From IMG/VR virus record IMGVR_UViG_3300009079_000051, positions 1 to 36,776 of that record: 36,776 nucleotides of DNA, one strand, 5' to 3'. Positions within the stretch are counted from its first letter, which is position 1. The number at the start of each line of letters is the position of its first letter. This stretch comes from a virus. A program made the translations under genes and the position numbers. The notes under the pieces are model-generated. The model was given only the letters and a program-made list of their open reading frames with translations, made no database searches and was not told the DNA's origin. Positions 1,519 to 29,908 of this stretch are shown here, in pieces.

Positions 1519-2019
1519 TTAAAACGGTATATCATCATCCTGGTTTTGTTGATTCTGTTGCCCGTTATTTCGCTGATTAGCGTTAAACCCGTTATTTTGT
1601 TGATTATTTTGGTTGACTGGTGGTTGATTAAACCCCTGTTGTTGTTGCTGTTGCTGAAAACCTTGCTGATTTGATCCTTGATCTTGAGCATCACGACTTC
1701 CCAAAAATTGTATCTGACCTGCTAAAATATCCGAACCATACATAGTTACACCATCTTTCTCGTACTGGTAGTACTGTATTTTCCCTTCAATGTAAACCTG
1801 TTTTCCTTTTGACAGGTATCGCCCAGCGTTTTCAGCCTGTTTATCAAATACCGTTATACGATGCCATTCAGTTTTTTCTTTTTTCTCACCGGTATTTTTA
1901 TCGTTCCACTTTTCAGACGTAGCCAATGAAAATTTTGCGATAGCTACGCCGCCTTGAGTATACGTTACCTCCGGATCTTGCCCTAAATGCCCGATCAACA
2001 TTACTTTGTTCAAACCCAT
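1519..2019 (-). CDS. ssb: Single-stranded DNA-binding protein
   Basis: A 166-residue SSB with an OB fold: NKVMLIGHLGQDPEVTYTQG at the start, FSLATSEKW, TEWHRITVFDKQAENAGRYL and KGKQVYIEGKIQ. A Q/N-rich flexible linker (about residues 110-160) follows, then the acidic tip DDDIPF that binds partner proteins. The open frame extends to 2145, but the ATG at 2019 has AAGGAG at 8 bases and begins exactly where family members do. The length is close to E. coli SSB (178 residues). It should coat ssDNA during phage replication and recombination, together with the YqaJ exonuclease and ERF annealing protein just upstream on the same strand. A hairpin-rich leader lies between ssb and the exonuclease gene. 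Confidence 0.96.
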   Translation of the reverse strand: MGLNKVMLIGHLGQDPEVTYTQGGVAIAKFSLATSEKWNDKNTGEKKEKTEWHRITVFDKQAENAGRYLSKGKQVYIEGKIQYYQYEKDGVTMYGSDILAGQIQFLGSRDAQDQGSNQQGFQQQQQQQGFNQPPVNQNNQQNNGFNANQRNNGQQNQQNQDDDIPF

Positions 2020-2104
2020 AATTTGCTCCTTTTGGTTGACAATTATTTTGTACCAGGATAAAACAATTTTTGATGGTTTACTGGTTGCTCTCCTTTTCGA
2101 TAGC

Positions 2105-2203
2105 TGGGAGGGTAACCGCTTCCCATCTACCTCTATGTAACACAAAGTCGGTTAAACCTTATGGGTAACGCGCCCTCATATCGTTTGTTTAACCGACTTT
2201 TGT
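2105..2203 (-). promoter_or_regulatory. Structured leader between the exonuclease gene and ssb
   Basis: On the minus strand AAAGTCGGTTAAAC pairs perfectly with GTTTAACCGACTTT (14 bp; arms within 2142-2157 and 2187-2203). The loop can itself fold (GGG/CCC). A second hairpin, TGGGA/TCCCA, lies at 2105-2125. No T-run follows the long stem in the leftward direction, so a processing site or translational control element fits better than a terminator. Read rightward, the stem is followed by TGTTTTATAT. Confidence 0.55.
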
Positions 2204-2218
2204 TTTATATCCCAGGCC

Positions 2219-2905
2219 TTACACACCGTGTGAATTTTCAAGGCTTAAAAAGCCGCTTTCCGGAGTCGTAATATAGGCTATATATTCCGGATCGTTTTTC
2301 TTTATATCACTGATAAGATGTTTTACTACAGGTAACCGAGCTTCTAAAGCTGTTGCATAAGTTATATAATCAGGGTCGGTCCGATCGATAAACGTTATAA
2401 ACGGCTCCATTTCAGGGTGATAGCTCATAAAATACCAGCGCTCTACGTCGTCACATAACCACAAACTTGAATAAACCTGCGCTTTATTTTTGGTAGGTAT
2501 AACCTTCTCATAACGTGTTTTTAAAAGCTCACCGGGCATAGGACACTTAATCTCTAAACCAAACTTATTATAGTTTGGGTCTAGGCCGTCAGGTGACGCG
2601 CATAAATAAGGATATTTCGCGTTAACAACTACGCCGACGTTAACAACTTCAAGCCCAGTAATAAAACTAAACCTTCGCTTTGCTTCAGGCTCTAGTGCTA
2701 GTCCCCGTTTCATATGATAACTTTCAAATGTCTCTTCACGTTCTCCGGTCTCAAGTTCAGCAATCTTTTTAAAAACATAGTCTTTAAGTGAACTTGAATT
2801 CTTGCCCGTCGGTGATACTATTTTATCCATTTGTGAAGCTGATAGCTTACCTAATTTTATCGCCCAATATGCTTCACTGTATTGTTCCATTTCGTATACT
2901 TTCAT
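2219..2905 (-). CDS. YqaJ/lambda-type 5'-3' exonuclease (viral recombinase nuclease)
   Basis: 228 residues, almost the length of lambda exonuclease (226). PD-(D/E)XK core: GLALEPEA (E72), CASPDGLD (D106) and LEIKCP (E118-x-K120), followed by the helix containing NKAQVYSSLWL with the motif Gln. This family resects dsDNA to give 3' tails for an annealing protein. Here that partner is the ERF protein encoded just upstream, and SSB is encoded downstream, so the three form a Red-like recombination set. The ATG at 2905 is preceded by GGGGTAAGAAA. Family assignment rests on these motifs; activity is inferred. Confidence 0.93.
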   Translation of the reverse strand: MKVYEMEQYSEAYWAIKLGKLSASQMDKIVSPTGKNSSSLKDYVFKKIAELETGEREETFESYHMKRGLALEPEAKRRFSFITGLEVVNVGVVVNAKYPYLCASPDGLDPNYNKFGLEIKCPMPGELLKTRYEKVIPTKNKAQVYSSLWLCDDVERWYFMSYHPEMEPFITFIDRTDPDYITYATALEARLPVVKHLISDIKKNDPEYIAYITTPESGFLSLENSHGV

Positions 2906-3270: not shown

Positions 3271-3966
3271 TTACGTGTTTTGTATTTTGATCAAACACAT
3301 CTTGAATTCTGCCTCGGTTAACTCCGCAAAATCAGAGATATTAAACTCACTGCAAACTATTGCCGGGTCAATATTTTTCCCTTGTAACTTTACAAGTAAG
3401 GCTGTTTGTTGTTCAGCCGATATTGTTTTTTTTGACAGTTGTTCTGTTTGTCCGTCATTATCAGCTTCGTTTGAAGCTAGGCCAGTGACAGCTAATAATG
3501 TATAACGCTGCAAGTATGATACTGTCGACGCGATTTGTTGGATTTTATTTTTTTTGCCTGAATCATCTGGTGGTGCGATCATTTCGCATGACTCGGAATG
3601 ACCTAGCTCATGCGTTATAATACAAATTACCTTTATTAAATTGCCGTTACCTTGCTTAACATCCCAACTAGCTGATAAGCCATATTTTGTTAGCTCGGAA
3701 TTAATAGCTGACGTTATATTGCCTAAACTAGCATGTTTATAACTCATGCCTGAATGGCTCACTGTTTTATCCTTGATAAGCTCAGGTGGGCTGGTTTTAA
3801 AATCCGCCATTGCCTTATGATAGGCTTTTTTTGCTTGCCGTTCTTCGTTAATTAAATGCAATTCCATTAATTTTTCCAGTTTATCCATATCAGCATTTTT
3901 ATCAATCGCTAATTGAATTAAACGCATCGTCGGCTCTGTACTATTTGCCATTGCTAATTGTGTCAT
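3271..3966 (-). CDS. erf: ERF-superfamily single-strand annealing protein
   Basis: 231 residues, near P22 Erf (204). ERF signatures are present: AYHKAMADFK near residue 50, MSYKHASLGNITSAINSEL, KYGLSASWDV, STVSYLQRYTLLAVTGLAS and the acidic N-E-A-D-N-D-G end of the core, followed by a variable C-terminal domain. ERF proteins form rings that anneal complementary ssDNA during recombination and genome circularisation. Its neighbours, a YqaJ exonuclease and SSB, supply the resection and coating steps. The ATG at 3966 is preceded by AAAGGAAAAGAC. Confidence 0.95.
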   Translation of the reverse strand: MTQLAMANSTEPTMRLIQLAIDKNADMDKLEKLMELHLINEERQAKKAYHKAMADFKTSPPELIKDKTVSHSGMSYKHASLGNITSAINSELTKYGLSASWDVKQGNGNLIKVICIITHELGHSESCEMIAPPDDSGKKNKIQQIASTVSYLQRYTLLAVTGLASNEADNDGQTEQLSKKTISAEQQTALLVKLQGKNIDPAIVCSEFNISDFAELTEAEFKMCLIKIQNT

Positions 3967-6499: not shown

Positions 6500-6544
6500 T
6501 AGGTAGATTTAAACGCTTAACAGCATTAACAAAGGGGTTAACAA

Positions 6545-6811
6545 ATGAATGAATTTAAAACAAACGACGCGTCAATGCCGATCATCATAGAGTTTGATAT
6601 TGACGCGCATGATGGCTCCGTCATTATCACAGGCTTTAAAATAGATCGCTCTGAAATTAACGACGATGATATACTTGATATGTTTTCAGATGATATCTTA
6701 GAGCAAGAAAAACAAATCAATGACGACATAAAATTAGAGATCGCGCTCGAACGACTCACGGATATAAAAGCAATGCGGAGTGATAGCACTCGCATCGGCT
6801 GGGATGATTAA
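6545..6811 (+). CDS. Hypothetical acidic protein, 88 residues
   Basis: First gene of the rightward early operon, with AACAAAGGGGTTAACAA before the ATG. About a quarter of the residues are Asp or Glu (for example SEINDDDILDMFSDDILE), with a beta-like N-terminus and helical C-terminus. No family recognised. A small acidic, first-expressed protein is compatible with an inhibitor or DNA mimic role, which remains inference. Confidence 0.65.
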   Translation: MNEFKTNDASMPIIIEFDIDAHDGSVIITGFKIDRSEINDDDILDMFSDDILEQEKQINDDIKLEIALERLTDIKAMRSDSTRIGWDD

Positions 6812-6829
6812 AATAAAAGGAATAAGGCA

Positions 6830-7045
6830 ATGGAAACATACAGAATAATTGAAAAGCAAAATCTTAATTCACTCCGGACTCCAGAAATAAAAAAGTTCAA
6901 AACGTTAACCGCTGCAAAACAATACGCTACACGTAACCAAGTCTGGGTGGGGACGGTTCTTGAGATTCAGAGCGAAAATGGAACGACTCTTTGCTGTAAA
7001 GGTCGTGACGGCTGGCATAATGACGTTGATTATTTGAATTATTAA
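6830..7045 (+). CDS. Hypothetical protein, 71 residues
   Basis: Unrecognised small protein. Pattern: helix-rich N-terminus (KKFKTLTAAKQYATRNQ), then short strands ending W-H-N-D-V-D-Y. AAAAGGAATAAGGCA precedes the ATG. It lies between the acidic gene and a Cys-rich gene in the rightward operon. Confidence 0.6.
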   Translation: METYRIIEKQNLNSLRTPEIKKFKTLTAAKQYATRNQVWVGTVLEIQSENGTTLCCKGRDGWHNDVDYLNY

Positions 7046-7057
7046 AAGGGGGACACA

Positions 7058-7318
7058 ATGGTAGATTATGATGAGTGCTTAACATGCGAGTATATAGAGC
7101 AACCGGACGCATGCCAAGGCTGCAATGAAGCAACCGAACATGGGAGCTGGCAACCTGCTAAGATCTTGACAGACCATTTCGGCGACGACTCAAAATTATA
7201 TACTGATCTTAATTGGAGTTTCTACGGCTGTTTTGGTAGCTATGACGAATTTAATCCGGCATGTGATATTGACGATTGCTCATTATCAGAGCCGTGTAAA
7301 AAAAGAAGGGAACAATAA
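7058..7318 (+). CDS. Cys-rich, probably metal-binding small protein
   Basis: 86 residues with an N-terminal C-L-T-C ... C-Q-G-C pair of CxxC motifs that could hold a zinc ion. Four further Cys lie in the C-terminal half (YGCFGSYDEF, ACDIDDCSLSEPC). AAAAGGGGGACACA precedes the ATG. No family recognised. Confidence 0.6.
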   Translation: MVDYDECLTCEYIEQPDACQGCNEATEHGSWQPAKILTDHFGDDSKLYTDLNWSFYGCFGSYDEFNPACDIDDCSLSEPCKKRREQ

Positions 7319-7319
7319 T

Positions 7320-7658
7320 ATGAAGCCAATAGAATACTTGACTATAAAAGATGTTTGCGAATTGCTACAAGTCCATCGTAACACCATTACTAAATTATGT
7401 AACGATGGCTTGCCGTTTGTTAATATCGGCGGGCGTAAACGATTTATTGCTGAGACTATAAAACAGTGGATTATTGAGCAATCAACTGCTAAACAAGAAC
7501 CGATTGAAAAGCCTGTCAAGCAAAAAGCAAGGCTTAAAACAGTCAAGCTTAAACCTGTTAAGAAACTATCACCAGTTAAAACAGATAGTTCAAGTGATAA
7601 GACGATTGACGATGCTAATCAGGCTTTTGAAGAATGGAAACGCAAACACTATACCTAA
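7320..7658 (+). CDS. Helix-turn-helix DNA-binding protein with basic tail
   Basis: 112 residues starting at the ATG at 7320, with AAGGGAACAATA upstream; the longer open frame overlaps the previous gene. The N-terminal half is an excisionase/MerR-type HTH: YLTIKDVCELLQVHRNTITK, then VNIGGRKRFIAETIKQWI with the G-R-K-R wing. Residues about 58-95 form a Lys/Pro/Val-rich linker with a repeated K-x-V/L-K-P-V pattern, and a short W-K-R-K-H end follows. It is a candidate regulator of the divergent early promoters or of later expression; the target is not shown. Confidence 0.75.
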   Translation: MKPIEYLTIKDVCELLQVHRNTITKLCNDGLPFVNIGGRKRFIAETIKQWIIEQSTAKQEPIEKPVKQKARLKTVKLKPVKKLSPVKTDSSSDKTIDDANQAFEEWKRKHYT

Positions 7659-7668
7659 AAGGAGAAAA

Positions 7669-7923
7669 ATGACCATGGGTCACTTTAATGAAGATGAATG
7701 TAACTGCCCTATTTGCCTGTTTAAAAAGGTATTGAAAGATAATAATCTTGAGACTGATTTTATACTAATAATACCCGACCCTAGCAATATAAAAGATGGT
7801 CTTTTGACCGGGACTATGCCAATCGAGGATGCTTATTTATGTTTAGGGCACGTTAGGGCGCGTATCAAAGAGAAACTAATATCTAATGGCCTCATTGAGG
7901 CAACTAAACAAACAAATCATTAA
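7669..7923 (+). CDS. Hypothetical protein with N-terminal C-x-C-x-x-C
   Basis: 84 residues from the ATG at 7669 after AAAAGGAGAAAA; a longer frame exists but overlaps the HTH gene. It starts MTMGHFNEDECNCPICLFKK, a possible half zinc site, followed by an alpha/beta pattern with Cys and His (LCLGHVRARIKEKL). Last gene of the rightward early operon. Confidence 0.6.
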   Translation: MTMGHFNEDECNCPICLFKKVLKDNNLETDFILIIPDPSNIKDGLLTGTMPIEDAYLCLGHVRARIKEKLISNGLIEATKQTNH

Positions 7924-7932
7924 ACCATTGTA

Positions 7933-7956
7933 ACGGGGACCAGTGACGGTCCCCGT
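7933..7956. terminator. Hairpin between convergent transcription units
   Basis: ACGGGGACC pairs with GGTCCCCGT (9 bp, 6-base loop), placed between the ends of the rightward operon (7923) and the leftward gene at 7961. T-runs are poor on both sides, so termination may be partial. Confidence 0.6.
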
Positions 7957-11367: not shown

Positions 11368-12471
11368 TCACCCCGTCTGTTTAAACCCACCCGTCATCTT
11401 TTTGTAGGCGGAATACATTGAAATTTCTATCAGCGTGGGATTTTCACCCTTAACGACAACTTGTTTAGCATAATCGACCAGACTGTCAAAACACTTTTTG
11501 TACAATTCACAGTCCGGTTGTTTCAACATTTCGTGAAACTCGCTGTCATTTCGCCTGTTTTCGTCTTCAGTGAGTCTGTCAATTTTCTTTTTCCCGTCTT
11601 CTTTTTCCTTAAGGGCATTCTCTTCCTGAGTTTTAAATCCTCTGGCTGTCGGTTTCTTTTTTTCCTTCACTTCGTTTTCTACCAGGAACAGGTTTAAGCT
11701 GTCCTTATCGGAGAGCATTTTAGCCAGGTAACGCTTTTCATTGGTAATTTTTTCTATGCCCTTATCGAGCCGCCTTTGCCTCTCAGCTTTCAATCCGGCT
11801 ATCTGTTGGATAACAAAATCACGGGGGCAGCTATGTGTGATTACCAAAGATTGAATTAAATCCATCTGTCCATCTGCTTTTTCTTCAGGGCGCTTTTCTT
11901 GATTGTTGGAAAGATTTTCGCGATTGATTGGAAGACTATCTAGTGGAAGACTATCATCATTATAGGCACCGACCGTGTACGGTCGGTGCTTATTAGCACC
12001 GACCGTGGAAGGTCGGTGGCGTAACGGCGGGGCTTTCGGCGTTTCATTTTTGGTCGGTGCTGTATCTACGGGGTTTTCGTCTTCCTCAAATTGATCATCT
12101 GCCGGGATTTCAATACCTTTCAATTCGAAGTATTTGTTCCAATCAATTTCAAAAAAAACCTGTGTTCCTTTGGTCGTTTTTCTCAGGTGTTTTATTAGAA
12201 GTTTGCCTTCACAAAATTGGTCCATTTTTTTCTTCAGCCTTTTTTCGTTTGCGGCTTCAGATGATTTTTTATAATATGAGTTTAGCAGTCTGAGATTTTT
12301 AGCAAAATGTTTGTAGTTATACAGGATGGCTTCCTGACCATCAAACTTTCTGCGGATAACCCTAGGATGTTTTGAAAAGTCGATCAAATTTAGGTAGATG
12401 TGTACGTCGTTATAGTCAAAGCCTAACTCAAAAAGTGGTTCCGCGTATAATCCTCGAACGTATAGTTCCAT
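11368..12471 (-). CDS. Putative replication initiator (replisome organiser) containing the origin
   Basis: 367 residues in three parts. The N-terminal region (about 1-115) is rich in short helices and strands and looks like a winged helix (KHFAKNLRLLNSYYKKSSEA, then TTKGTQVFFEIDWNKYFEL). The linker (about 120-195) is polar with the repeat HRP(S/Y)TVGA. The C-terminal half is helical and charged. The linker codons carry the inverted iterons at 11966-12060. An origin inside the initiator linker is the arrangement of lambda O and related phage initiators. GGGGGGATAT precedes the ATG at 12471. First gene of the leftward replication operon. The function is inferred from architecture and embedded iterons, not from a recognised motif. 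Confidence 0.6.
   Translation of the reverse strand: MELYVRGLYAEPLFELGFDYNDVHIYLNLIDFSKHPRVIRRKFDGQEAILYNYKHFAKNLRLLNSYYKKSSEAANEKRLKKKMDQFCEGKLLIKHLRKTTKGTQVFFEIDWNKYFELKGIEIPADDQFEEDENPVDTAPTKNETPKAPPLRHRPSTVGANKHRPYTVGAYNDDSLPLDSLPINRENLSNNQEKRPEEKADGQMDLIQSLVITHSCPRDFVIQQIAGLKAERQRRLDKGIEKITNEKRYLAKMLSDKDSLNLFLVENEVKEKKKPTARGFKTQEENALKEKEDGKKKIDRLTEDENRRNDSEFHEMLKQPDCELYKKCFDSLVDYAKQVVVKGENPTLIEISMYSAYKKMTGGFKQTG
11929..12060. other. Candidate replication origin: inverted iterons inside the initiator gene
   Basis: GCACCGACCGT-GT-ACGGTCGGTGC (11966-11989) is a perfect 11-bp inverted repeat. GCACCGACC-GTGGAA-GGTCGGTG (11996-12018) is a second copy exactly 30 bases later. A lone half-site, GGTCGGTGC, lies at 12052-12060. 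Next to them GGAAGACTATC occurs twice (11930-11940, 11945-11955), followed by A/T-richer sequence at about 11885-11930 that could serve for unwinding. The spacing of about three helical turns and the place in the initiator gene match lambdoid origins. Alternatives: an operator, or hairpins in the mRNA. Confidence 0.65.
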
Positions 12472-12510
12472 ATATCCCCCCTGAAAATTAAATTTATCCT
12501 TGATTTTTTC

Positions 12511-12617
12511 TGAAGGGTGCTTTAGAAAGGGCTTACAATGCGATGTAAGGTGTCCTCTGTTGTGTTATGCGCCTTCAAAAATTTACCCGGTAGCTAACAA
12601 CTGCCGGGTTTTTTTTT
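12511..12617 (+). ncRNA. Short structured RNA divergent from the initiator gene (OOP-like)
   Basis: The stretch upstream of the initiator has no convincing gene but ends on the + strand in a textbook terminator. ACCCGGTAG/CTGCCGGGT (12585-12609) is followed by nine T. Upstream are the hairpin CTTACA/TGTAAG and an outer pairing GAAGG (12512-12516) with CCTTC (12572-12576). A promoter-like TTGATT-17-TAGAAA starts near 12500 and would give a transcript of roughly 80 nt. In lambda, OOP RNA is also a short terminated transcript running away from O. Similarity is in geometry only. The transcript and its 5' end are inferred. Confidence 0.5.
12585..12617 (+). terminator. Strong rightward intrinsic terminator
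   Basis: A 9-bp stem with one U-G wobble, 7-base loop and nine T. No rightward gene ends here, which is the reason to suspect a noncoding transcript upstream. Confidence 0.88.
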
Positions 12618-12757
12618 GCTTAAACTTCGCTATTAATACATTTGAGACTTTACTCTGTCAACAGGTTATCAACAGTTTGAACATAAGGCCAATAGAAACC
12701 ACATGTTAAAAGATCTTTCAAGTAAATTTTATAAAATAATATCATCACTTTAGAGCC

Positions 12758-12834
12758 ATAGGGTTATTGCCCTATTTCTTTAGTCGGTTTCCCTATATGA
12801 AAAAACTTGACATGTTGTTCTTGCATATATAGGG
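12758..12834. promoter_or_regulatory. Rightward promoter with ATAGGG/CCCTAT operator-like repeats
   Basis: The hexamer ATAGGG or its complement appears four times: ATAGGG-N6-CCCTAT (12758-12775), CCCTATATG (12791-12799) and CATATATAGGG (12824-12834). TTGACA lies at 12807-12812. The best -10 is TATAGG (12828-12833, 15-base spacer), which overlaps the last repeat, so a protein bound there would block RNA polymerase. A near-match to the DnaA box, TTATCAACA, lies upstream at 12666-12674. The rest of the 12620-12757 stretch shows no gene. The promoter drives the zinc-ribbon gene at 12857. Confidence 0.55.
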
Positions 12835-12856
12835 TTCATGCAACAAGGGAGGAAAG

Positions 12857-13006
12857 ATGGTTTCTGAACACAACAAAAACGAATCCACTGTAGAATGCCC
12901 GAAATGCCATACACCATTGTTGGGGTTCATGCGTCAGAACGGTGTCACCTTCTCTTGCCCGAACAAAGATTGCGGGTACACCCGCTTTGAAGTCTTCCGG
13001 AAATAA
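12857..13006 (+). CDS. Small zinc-ribbon protein
   Basis: 49 residues, with AAGGGAGGAAAG before the ATG. Two Cys pairs, C-P-K-C near residue 14 and C-P-N-K-D-C near residue 34, are separated by a strand-turn segment (GFMRQNGVTFS). This matches zinc ribbons such as the topoisomerase I C-terminal finger or the Mu Com type. It probably binds nucleic acid. Its stop overlaps an ATG of the next frame (TAATG). First gene of a unit that also contains a DIP1984-like gene and a large noncoding RNA. Confidence 0.75.
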   Translation: MVSEHNKNESTVECPKCHTPLLGFMRQNGVTFSCPNKDCGYTRFEVFRK

Positions 13007-13089
13007 TGACAGAAGAAACCCCCGAATGGATAAACCTACAACGTGATTATTTAGGGGTGACCTTCGGCAAAACTGAAAGGGATGGAACT

Positions 13090-13383
13090 ATGAAATTAGC
13101 ACAAGCACTGCTCAGACGAAAAGAACTACATAGCAAAGTTGAACAGATTAGGCCGCTTACAAACAAAGACATTTACGAAGTCAAAGTCCAGCGTAGAAAT
13201 ATCAGTGAGACTATTGATGATATAACAGCAACAGTCCCAAAGGTAGAATTAAAACAGGTCACAGCCGAATTCGATTATTATTCAAGTCAACTCCGGCATG
13301 TTGACGCGGCAATTCAACAGGCCAATTGGACAACAGAGATCAAACCAGAAATAGAAGTAATGAAAAACTATAAAGAAGCGTAG
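13090..13383 (+). CDS. DIP1984-like small helical protein
   Basis: 97 residues from the ATG at 13090. This start has GGG at 8 bases and coincides with the M-K-L-A-x-A-L-x-x-R-K-x-L start typical of the DIP1984/septicolysin-like family. The frame is open to 13006, where a TAATG overlap with the previous stop could give a longer, coupled form of 125 residues. The protein is almost entirely helical (coiled-coil-like: MKLAQALLRRKELHSKVEQI). Its biochemical role is unknown. The large structured RNA region follows its stop directly. Confidence 0.55.
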   Translation: MKLAQALLRRKELHSKVEQIRPLTNKDIYEVKVQRRNISETIDDITATVPKVELKQVTAEFDYYSSQLRHVDAAIQQANWTTEIKPEIEVMKNYKEA

Positions 13384-13938
13384 GACACAACCGGGTTAAT
13401 GATGTCAACAAGGGTGAAAAGTAAAGGCTTGCACGTTTGCCTTAAAAACGCAGGGAAAAGCTTTTTCCGTTTGCAACCTCTGTTTACTCCCCAATGGGAG
13501 TATAGGAAAACCACTGTTAATGGTTTATGGTTCGATTCCATATAGGCTAAGAGTTCAGGCACTCAAAAAACAGCCTGGGTAACTCCGACTATCAGAACTT
13601 TTAATTTTTAACGCCCGATTGACCGACTGTGATTACACCCTATTTCCGAATAAGATACTGACGACTAACCAGCTTTTGACTTGTTGGCATCAGTAACCCG
13701 GTTGCATTAAAGATTAAATTGAATAAGAATTCTGTGATAGAGGCGGCTTTATAGTCCGGCTTGAAAGGGGCAGACCTCCTGAGCTGCCCTTCCACAGATA
13801 AAAACGATGACAAAGTTCCCCGGCAGGGTTTAAATATTACTCCTTACGATTAGCCTCGTCTCCTTGCCGGGGACTTAAAATAGACCTCCCCGTAGTACAA
13901 GGCTTTGCTTTCTTAAAAAGAGCAAAGCCTTTTTTTTT
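13384..13938 (+). ncRNA. Large structured noncoding RNA (GOLLD/ROOL-like in size and setting)
   Basis: About 550 bases with no plausible gene, ended by a strong terminator. Perfect pairings: CAACCGGGTTA (13388-13398) with TAACCCGGTTG (13694-13704), 295 bases apart; 13424-13428/13439-13443; GGAAAA/TTTTCC (13454-13468); TACTCCC-CAAT-GGGAGTA (13485-13502); TATGG-TTCGATT-CCATA (13526-13542), a tRNA-type T-arm; a two-part stem at 13551-13585; ACTGA/TCAGT (13657-13694); TCTGTG/CACAGA (13731-13798) enclosing the GGGGCAG hairpin (13766-13791); and a 12-bp stem with one bulge at 13813-13876. This density and the long-range helix indicate a folded RNA. No acceptor stem pairs with the T-arm, so it is not an ordinary tRNA. 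The class is unproven. It is probably made by read-through from 12807. Confidence 0.6.
13899..13938 (+). terminator. Strong rightward intrinsic terminator
   Basis: AAGGCTTTGCT pairs with AGCAAAGCCTT (11 bp, 11-base loop), followed directly by T-runs to 13938. It ends the zinc-ribbon / DIP1984-like / noncoding RNA unit and insulates it from the late genes. Confidence 0.92.
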
Positions 13939-13981
13939 AGGCATCCTGCTTGATAATCTTCACTCTCAGAATAATTCAATG

Positions 13982-14021
13982 TTGACAAACTGTTGACAAA
14001 ACAACCTGGATTTGCAATTAA
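13982..14021 (+). promoter_or_regulatory. Candidate promoter of the late (structural) operon
   Basis: TTGACA appears twice (13982-13987 and 13993-13998) within the repeated TGTTGACAAA. Seventeen bases after the second is AATTAA, preceded by TG one base before it, as in an extended -10. The -10 is weak, which would suit a late promoter needing an activator. It lies just after the 13938 terminator and before the first late gene at 14082. Confidence 0.5.
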
Positions 14022-14081
14022 ACGAAAGGGATAACGTTCTTTTTCTTTTTTATCACTTCTTTCAGAGGGGATATTGTCAAC

Positions 14082-14264
14082 ATGGGTGGTTGCGGCGGTC
14101 TACCTTCAGGCGTTCCAGGCCTGGACGGATACAACTTTTCATACAACATAATAACGCAAACCATAGTTATTCGGTTCAACCAACAGATGATTGTTGCCGA
14201 CGAGATAATAATCAACGAAGGCGAAGAGTTGCGCATCGAAGGCCAATTAGTCCTAATCGTATAG
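14082..14264 (+). CDS. Hypothetical small Gly-rich protein at the start of the late operon
   Basis: 60 residues: a Gly/Pro-rich start (MGGCGGLPSGVPGLDGYNFS) and a beta-rich remainder (ADEIIINEGEELRIEGQLVL) that looks like part of a fibre-type strand repeat. AGAGGGG precedes the ATG. It directly precedes the tail-fibre-like gene, so an accessory fibre or assembly role is possible. No family recognised. Confidence 0.55.
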   Translation: MGGCGGLPSGVPGLDGYNFSYNIITQTIVIRFNQQMIVADEIIINEGEELRIEGQLVLIV

Positions 14265-14273
14265 GGGTTCAAA

Positions 14274-27995: not shown

Positions 27996-29908
27996 TGCCA
28001 ACACAAAAACAGCGGTTCAGAGAGACGGTGCCAATAAAACAGACCGATCTAGGGACGGGGATACCTGAAAGAACTATGTCTCTGGTTGAGAAGCTTCATC
28101 AGTTTGATAACCAGCTCGAAAATTTTGTTGGCAAGGGGTTTGAACTACGAGCGGAAAACGAGGCACAGGCAGGGGCAGAGGAAGCCGAAGCAACCCCACA
28201 GAGAGACGAAGAAGGGAAGTTGCAACAACCACCCTTCAGGGAAGAAGGCATCTTCGACCGACATAGGACAAGAGCTTACAACGCAACGTTAGCCGACGCA
28301 TACAAAGAGTCACAGAAGAACGACAACAGGGAAAATTTAAGCCGTATATTTTTAGAAAATAGCATGGATGTAGCCGGGTACACCGCCTCGGCGGAAGCAT
28401 ATAAGACAGGAGTTTTAAAAAATGTCGACCCGTATATCCAGGCAGATGTGGGCCAGGAATTGGAACGTTCTATCTCTATAGGAAAAACCAAAGTCCAGGA
28501 AAACCAGATGCAAGCGAACCTTAAAACGGCGCAAGGTATTTTCCAGGTAAGCTATCAAAAGAATGCGCTTGAAGCTTCAAGGCTGGCAAGAGAAGGCGAT
28601 ACACTCGGCAGCGGAGAGGCTCTGTTCCAGGCGATTACAAACATAAACAAACTCACAATCGGCAAAGATAAAAAGGAAGAGTTGATTCGTGGAGTCGAAC
28701 GAGAAACCACAGAGCAAACATTCAGATATGCTTTTGACCAGCTACCCATTGAAGAAACAGAAGCGGAAATAAACAAAGTAGAAGATGCCGTTCCAGGAGG
28801 GTGGAAGCCAGACGAATGGGACACGTTTATCAAATCAGCACGAACAGATTTGACGCATAGGAAAACAGTCGAAAGGGCGCAGGCCGGAGTGGTAAGCGAC
28901 GCAGAAGAAGAGAACCTATTTCGCAAACTCGTGAAGAACGAACTGACTGAAACAGACATAGAAACGGCTGCGTTGGACGACCCAGCAAAAAGACTCCGAT
29001 GGTACGGGGTAATGAACCAGAATACAGACAGGGCGAAGGCAGCGCGGAAGGCGGAGAAAGATCTAATCCGTCAAGAAAGGAATGATTTGTACACGATGGA
29101 AACACGGGCAAAGGCGCAGATAGAGTCTGTAGCAGAAGCGGGGATGGATACACTATATTCTAACATGAGCCTAACCATTGACATGATAGACACATCGAAC
29201 GCTAGCACTGCCATGAAAAGAATTTATCGTGACATGGTCAAGAAACAAACCAAAGCCGTAAAAGACAGGGCGATAGAATTAAACACACTAATGCTGGACG
29301 CAGAGATATTAAATAACCTGGGCGGCTGGACGGACCCACAGTTATACGACTTTGTTGACAAGGGGTTGATACCAGATGACGTTTATATCTGGCAGCAACG
29401 CAACAAGGAAACCAAAAACGACCCGAACAATTTTAGGCATGACGTAGTCTATAAGCAGGGCTTAAGAGATTTGCAGAATGCTAAAGAAAACTTGTTGTTT
29501 ATTGGTGGGGGGAACGAGGCCGGAAAAACAGAGAAACAACTCCTGAACAACGACAACCGAAACACCGGGGAGTATCTGAAAGTACTGAGACAATTTGAAA
29601 GGGAATGTTCGCAACCTGGAGCAGATGTCGACGCAATATTGATGAGGCTTAAGAAACCATACCTTGGAAATGTTTCTCAAACCTACATGGAACGTCTGAC
29701 GGAGGGAGCCACGAAAGCGATCACAGAAGCCTGGGATAAAACTGCAAAAAAAACCCCAAAGACGGAGGCTAAACCGAAGGCAGCGGCCAAAGAGAAACGG
29801 GCGGCCCCGACACGGGAAGAGTTTTTGAAGGCTGCAAAGGCGGGGAACAAGGATTATTCAGATCAGGAATTAAATGATTACTACGATAAAGAATATGGTG
29901 GTCAATGA
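27995..29908 (+). CDS. Internal virion (core) protein, gp15-like by position
   Basis: 637 residues (T7 gp15 is 747). Almost entirely helical, rich in Glu, Lys and Gln, with a disordered early region and a Lys/Ala-rich end before a helix (AAKAGNKDYSDQELNDYYDK). Order after gp14-like and before a giant gp16-like gene supports the core role; direct sequence recognition is weak. The stop overlaps the next ATG (ATGA). Confidence 0.65.
   Translation: MPTQKQRFRETVPIKQTDLGTGIPERTMSLVEKLHQFDNQLENFVGKGFELRAENEAQAGAEEAEATPQRDEEGKLQQPPFREEGIFDRHRTRAYNATLADAYKESQKNDNRENLSRIFLENSMDVAGYTASAEAYKTGVLKNVDPYIQADVGQELERSISIGKTKVQENQMQANLKTAQGIFQVSYQKNALEASRLAREGDTLGSGEALFQAITNINKLTIGKDKKEELIRGVERETTEQTFRYAFDQLPIEETEAEINKVEDAVPGGWKPDEWDTFIKSARTDLTHRKTVERAQAGVVSDAEEENLFRKLVKNELTETDIETAALDDPAKRLRWYGVMNQNTDRAKAARKAEKDLIRQERNDLYTMETRAKAQIESVAEAGMDTLYSNMSLTIDMIDTSNASTAMKRIYRDMVKKQTKAVKDRAIELNTLMLDAEILNNLGGWTDPQLYDFVDKGLIPDDVYIWQQRNKETKNDPNNFRHDVVYKQGLRDLQNAKENLLFIGGGNEAGKTEKQLLNNDNRNTGEYLKVLRQFERECSQPGADVDAILMRLKKPYLGNVSQTYMERLTEGATKAITEAWDKTAKKTPKTEAKPKAAAKEKRAAPTREEFLKAAKAGNKDYSDQELNDYYDKEYGGQ

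Follow-up and report, generated by a model that had tools for sequence, protein, structure and literature searches.

The window analyzed here, 36,776 bp long, consists of one virus record. The replication initiator of this podophage is probably the product of its gene at 11368–12471, and the repeats midway through that gene would be the sites bound by the initiator and the core of the phage origin. An earlier sequence-only reading had placed an origin inside an initiator gene at this position; this is the best-supported reading of the region, though it is not proven. Support comes from constraint on the repeats at the DNA level, from mid-gene repeats in seven related phages and from iterons in the linkers of plasmid relatives. 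We infer a winged-helix fold, binding to the repeats, origin function and recruitment of a helicase or primase, and the protein is best explained as an orphan initiator that works like lambda O or RepA_N and is a member of neither. The classical layout is already known; what is new is an initiator in no listed family with a site array of its own. The gene, its parts and the repeats are listed here.

11368–12471, minus strand: putative replication initiator gene, an open reading frame (ORF) of 367 aa with an ATG start, its C terminus related to ParA-adjacent plasmid proteins
12109–12471, minus strand: N-terminal domain (NTD, residues 1–121), a probable DNA-binding winged helix-turn-helix (HTH), from the helix/strand order in low-confidence single-sequence models
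11860–12108, minus strand: linker-coding segment (residues ~122–204) holding the array, between the NTD and the C-terminal match and predicted to be without regular structure
11392–11859, minus strand: C-terminal domain (CTD, residues 205–360), proposed to recruit the replisome and common to Desulfobacterales plasmid proteins
11929–11940 and 11944–11955, no strand: direct repeat TGGAAGACTATC in two copies at a 15-bp pitch
11966–11989, no strand: palindrome 1, GCACCGACC-GTGTAC-GGTCGGTGC, with 9-bp perfect arms, a proposed initiator site
11996–12019, no strand: palindrome 2, GCACCGACC-GTGGAA-GGTCGGTGg, with 8-bp perfect arms, an unpaired outermost base and a loop that differs from that of palindrome 1
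12052–12060, no strand: fifth perfect half-site GGTCGGTGC, part of a 28-bp direct repeat with 12011–12038

The repeat array in the middle of the gene

The array occupies the middle of the 367-aa gene. Two inverted repeats 30 bases apart had been described in the sequence-only reading, and both were found at 11966–11989 and 11996–12019, with one small correction: the first copy is fully perfect, but the outermost base of the second has no pairing partner. They share the form CACCGACC-N6-GGTCGGTG at a spacing of exactly 30 bp, and their half-sites begin at 11966, 11981, 11996 and 12011, one every 15 bp exactly and in alternating orientation. The further half-site (there counted as the third) and the direct repeat are likewise present, at 12052–12060 and 11929–11955, and the coordinates place the repeats inside the linker codons of the putative initiator, as had been proposed. 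The 28-bp direct repeat (12011–12038 and 12052–12079, 79% identity) has its copies 41 bp apart, a distance not divisible by 3. The peptide encoded across the array is RHRPSTVGANKHRPYTVGAYNDDSLPLDSLP. Because the lone half-site at 12052 is read as A-P-T, a different frame from the H-R-P of the palindrome half-sites, DNA is what is conserved.

The repeats are constrained as DNA and not as peptide. With up to three mismatches allowed, the palindrome pattern was expected 0.06 times per window and observed twice, both times exactly, and no shuffle yielded two. When the local peptide was synonymously resampled using the codon usage of the left-arm genes, both palindromes appeared together in 0 of 200,000 sequences and either one in 0.12%. 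Resampling across the whole gene (n = 2,000) left 95% of sequences without such an inverted repeat and reached a maximum of 3 counts, compared to the 8 observed. A general codon-permutation test of repeat content was also applied, in which 5 of 300 permutations reached the window gene; the specific palindrome test is far stronger. Chance, or a protein-level event in which 10 codons of a disordered linker were duplicated in tandem, would account for two units lying 30 bp apart and in frame. A duplication does not create a palindrome within each unit, however, and the half-site in the other frame, the 41-bp repeat and the synonymous test also speak against this explanation, which the synonymous test alone strongly disfavors and whose probability is close to negligible.

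An exact search for the palindrome returned 3 scattered matches in 2.9 million viral contigs and 11 in 84,980 genomes. These were mostly in GC-rich genomes, and the four that were translated in the analysis sit in unrelated settings. A mobile palindromic element (REP/RPE-like) was rejected, as no family of copies was present in the window, the viral contigs or the genome contigs.

Mid-gene repeats in related phages and plasmids

Podophage relatives were found through the major capsid protein, in which they are up to 86% identical; the structural module is common to them, while the replication arm mostly is not. In a local repeat scan, seven of these relatives displayed a gene with a block of repeats midway through its coding sequence, following the part for an N-terminal domain. 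As the seven were selected by their repeats, their fraction among all relatives is not an unbiased estimate. The repeat sequences vary from phage to phage, and the pitch is 11 bp in five of the seven, 21 bp in one and irregular (12 and 22 bp) in another; the 11-bp pitch of most is not explicable by codons. In codon-permutation controls, the observed amount of repeats exceeded most or all permutations, with one weak case (reached by 25 of 300). In another two relatives, the repeat blocks of the initiator-type genes are weak.

The proteins of the seven repeat-bearing genes were scanned against PHROGs after this selection. Five matched families named replication initiation, O-like or DnaD-like helicase loader. 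The sixth matched primosomal proteins, with phrog_9327 covering nearly its whole length and the other families its N-terminal half, and the sole match of the seventh was a family of unknown function. The DnaD-like helicase loaders and primosomal proteins (phrog_2514 and phrog_9327) resemble the window system in the shared structural module and in the placement of repeats in mid-gene codons, although there is no significant sequence similarity between them and the window protein.

Two other functions for the palindromes were weighed against these phages. First, the protein could be a transcription regulator and the palindromes its operator, acting through autoregulation by an in-gene roadblock with no origin role. 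The 24-bp palindromic sites with a 6-bp center resemble dimer operators, and an HTH-like N terminus is plausible. We consider this improbable: operators are normally found at promoters, mid-gene repeats accompany initiators in comparable phages, and a protein of 367 aa with a long helical C terminus common to ParA-adjacent plasmid genes fits replication better. Second, the palindromes could act as strong mRNA hairpins, either regulating the operon or delaying translation between the domains, in agreement with a folding z-score of −5.9 and with 0 of 200 shuffles being equally stable. Any DNA palindrome folds in RNA, though, the fifth half-site stands alone, and the equivalent repeats are mainly direct and not hairpins in most of the seven related phages, which leaves an RNA role extremely unlikely.

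Repeats of another kind were also noted. At the end of contig L123 (15001–15270), a large and almost perfect inverted duplication is probably an assembly artefact. One AATTGN/AHAATTGD peptide-repeat gene was present at both ends of a phage contig (L111:1–250 and L112:16026–16275), which is probably broken inside the repeat gene and may be circular.

On sequence comparison, the C terminus of the window protein is likely homologous to proteins of Desulfobacterales plasmids. Pairwise blastp gave 40 bits over 97 columns, where the best of 5,000 block-shuffled controls scored 32.7 bits. When three plasmid proteins were aligned to the window protein with hhalign, residues 205–360 matched at 94% probability and a pairwise E of 1.3e-7. 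The three proteins (WP_027354714, WP_155326331 and WP_012663291) are all encoded directly after a parA-type gene, and in each of these genes the codons to either side of a central HTH-like domain contain iterons. The HTH was assigned by eye; Pfam did not list one in the single protein tested. The iteron unit is 11 bp in Desulfosarcina BuS5 and 8 bp, in 29 registers, in Desulforapulum pHRM2a, while the D. ovata iterons follow mostly 12-bp steps. In pHRM2a (L153:1004–2293), the 8-bp units GAACAAGT/GAGCAACA lie within an ORF and flank the HTH region, and the period of 8 results in peptide repeats every 8 residues. In the BuS5 plasmid (NZ_CP087953.1; L141:4658–5500), the intact iteron gene is followed downstream by a second, decayed copy with a tandem array of 11-bp CCAACGGTATT iterons.

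The plasmid proteins have in common with the window protein a related CTD and, next to an HTH-like domain, linker codons that contain iterons. Their HTH is central with iterons on both sides, whereas the window array lies only after the NTD; their iterons are short direct repeats at an 8–12-bp pitch; the N-terminal parts could not be aligned; and in contrast to the adjacent parA of the plasmids, no ParA match was detected among the phage proteins scanned. The position of all three plasmid genes directly after parA would also suit a partition-like (centromere) array bound by a ParB-like protein, and pHRM2a has a separate group of HTH, ATPase and zinc-finger genes that could be its replication module. 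Yet rep genes commonly adjoin parA, the phage has the ParA result just given, and the related phages have initiators of the same layout, so that a partition role appears very unlikely.

Genome context and the intergenic region

The putative initiator gene lies on the same strand as genes for single-strand DNA-binding protein (SSB), an Erf-type annealing protein and a YqaJ-type exonuclease, which was counted in favor of the initiator and origin reading. These genes are listed with two features of the intergenic region.

1519–2145, minus strand: SSB (PF00436, phrog_44), same-strand early gene cluster
2219–2905, minus strand: YqaJ-type exonuclease (PF09588, phrog_149), same-strand early gene cluster
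3271–3966, minus strand: Erf-type single-strand annealing protein (PF04404, phrog_155), same-strand early gene cluster
12666–12674, plus strand: DnaA-box-like TTATCAACA with 1 mismatch, weak, as one-mismatch 9-mers are expected by chance
12703–12752, no strand: least stable 50-bp duplex anywhere in the window, intergenic and upstream of the gene, a candidate unwinding element or promoter

The origin proper could instead be the intergenic region at 12472–12840, with the in-gene palindromes only loading the initiator or down-regulating the gene. This region is very AT-rich, contains several inverted repeats and separates both transcription arms, and it holds the least stable 50-mer (12703–12752) and the DnaA-box-like 9-mer at 12666. 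Divergent promoter regions are AT-rich anyway, however; the palindrome sequence is absent from 12472–12840, and the related phages likewise carry their repeats in the gene. We therefore regard an exclusively intergenic origin as unlikely, while initiator sites inside the gene may be combined with unwinding in the intergenic DNA. Cumulative GC skew, proposed in the sequence-only reading as a check, has its minimum at 11,796, near the array. That minimum also lies near the divergent transcription switch, and the skew tracks gene direction, as suggested by the positive skew at 6500–7950 within the negative arm; it cannot decide the matter and was for these reasons not counted as evidence.

Other features of the window were recorded. 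Four ATAGGG/CCCTAT half-sites surround a TTGACA promoter-like element at 12758–12834 (ATAGGG-N6-CCCTAT at 12758–12775, CCCTATAT at 12791–12798 and ATATAGGG at 12827–12834), which is likely a repressor operator region between both transcription arms. Just right of this divergent promoter region, 13006–13383 encodes a DIP1984/DUF6847 family protein (unknown function), followed by ~900 bp (13384–14273) with no convincing gene. Rfam and tRNA scans were empty, including over this stretch, which contains several hairpins (for example, 13817–13873 and the terminator-like 13899–13931) and an 11-bp repeat, TGTTGACAAA, at 13980–14000. A terminator-like inverted repeat (9 bp perfect, 6-bp loop) at 7933–7956 lies at the end of the plus-strand ORF block. 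Repeat peaks at 29876 and 1451 were rejected as peptide or terminator repeats.

The protein, known systems and a proposed mechanism

Several results weigh against an initiator with its origin at this locus. The window protein has no family match in Pfam, PHROGs, NCBIfam or PDB, a single PHROG match at E = 0.47 being noise. AlphaFold2 single-sequence models had predicted local distance difference test (pLDDT) values of 41 and 43, which are uninformative and give no confident fold. In the plasmid collection, tblastn matched the C terminus to the Desulfosarcina plasmid protein at E = 0.5, a similarity that is weak outside the pairwise tests. The palindromes total only two full copies, compared to four lambda iterons. 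Next to the array, no AT-rich tract is an outlier, the weakest duplex being ~0.7 kb off: the best 45-mer within ~250 bp on the low-coordinate side reaches only the 80th percentile, and on the high-coordinate side a 98th-percentile stretch is ~245 bp away.

Structure prediction, suggested in the sequence-only reading for a comparison with lambda O, gave no confident fold, and Foldseek returned no matches. The order of elements in the models appears compatible with a winged helix (residues 1–120), an unstructured linker and a helical C terminus. No close relatives of the initiator were found in the viral contigs, the INPHARED phages or 29 capsid-related virus records. A profile of the C terminus had no match in the viral contigs and only two weak matches in 398 genomes (phylum of a Sphingosinicella genome); one of these fell within a type III secretion SctL-like coiled coil and was rejected as chance, and the other, not read, is interrupted by two stops. 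No match to the full-length Desulfosarcina protein turned up in 398 genomes (phylum of a Hydrogenophaga genome).

Origins inside initiator genes have published precedents, including repC (PMC3155836). In lambda O, the iterons are imperfect inverted repeats in mid-gene (PMC7466680), and lambdoid O-type initiators resemble the window gene in these mid-gene inverted-repeat sites and in having recombination genes in the same arm. The likeness is one of layout and not of homology: the window protein matches no O or DnaD family, including the 'replication initiation O-like' families phrog_345, phrog_678 and phrog_18020. The window has two palindromes and one half-site at a 15/30-bp pitch in place of four iterons, and unlike lambda O, with its AT-rich unwinding tract beside the iterons, its array has no such tract directly beside it. 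In the RepA_N protein pSK41 Rep, the origin encodes residues 121–199, a stretch that the protein tolerates losing, and in pPR9 the NTD plus origin has been exchanged and the CTD kept (PMC5703833). The window protein may parallel RepA_N, at nearly the dimensions of pSK41 Rep, in an NTD of ~120 aa, a putatively origin-coded linker of ~80 aa and a CTD, with the window borders taken from low-confidence models. It does not match PF06970, its sites are unrelated, and it belongs to a phage and not to a Firmicute plasmid. An exchange of the pPR9 type would account for the C terminus being the only part common to the window protein and the plasmid proteins.

In the mechanism we propose, the NTD, probably a winged helix, would bind the GCACCGACC half-sites as dimers on both palindromes, and the 15-bp pitch and 30-bp repeat would line up the bound protein into one nucleoprotein complex. 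The inter-domain codons would encode a flexible linker whose amino acids are of little importance, so that the DNA there would be free to carry sites. The CTD would recruit the host replicative helicase or primase, a host partner being proposed because no phage helicase was recognized, and the phage SSB, Erf and YqaJ proteins would then take over.

A broader view, possible but doubtful, is that the window protein and the Desulfobacterales plasmid proteins form an undescribed superfamily of modular initiators in phages and plasmids with cassette swapping. The DNA-binding domain and its own sites would travel as a contiguous in-gene cassette, swapped as a unit before a conserved C-terminal recruiting domain. 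If this is true, each element gains a private origin in one recombination step.

The analysis assigns a putative initiator and a testable origin to a phage lineage in which the replication gene matches none of the family libraries used. Because the same scan singled out initiator-type genes in seven relatives whose proteins are unrelated, mid-gene repeats constrained as DNA may serve to locate initiators and origins where homology fails. The plasmid relatives extend the pattern to uncharacterized genes of Desulfobacterales plasmids.
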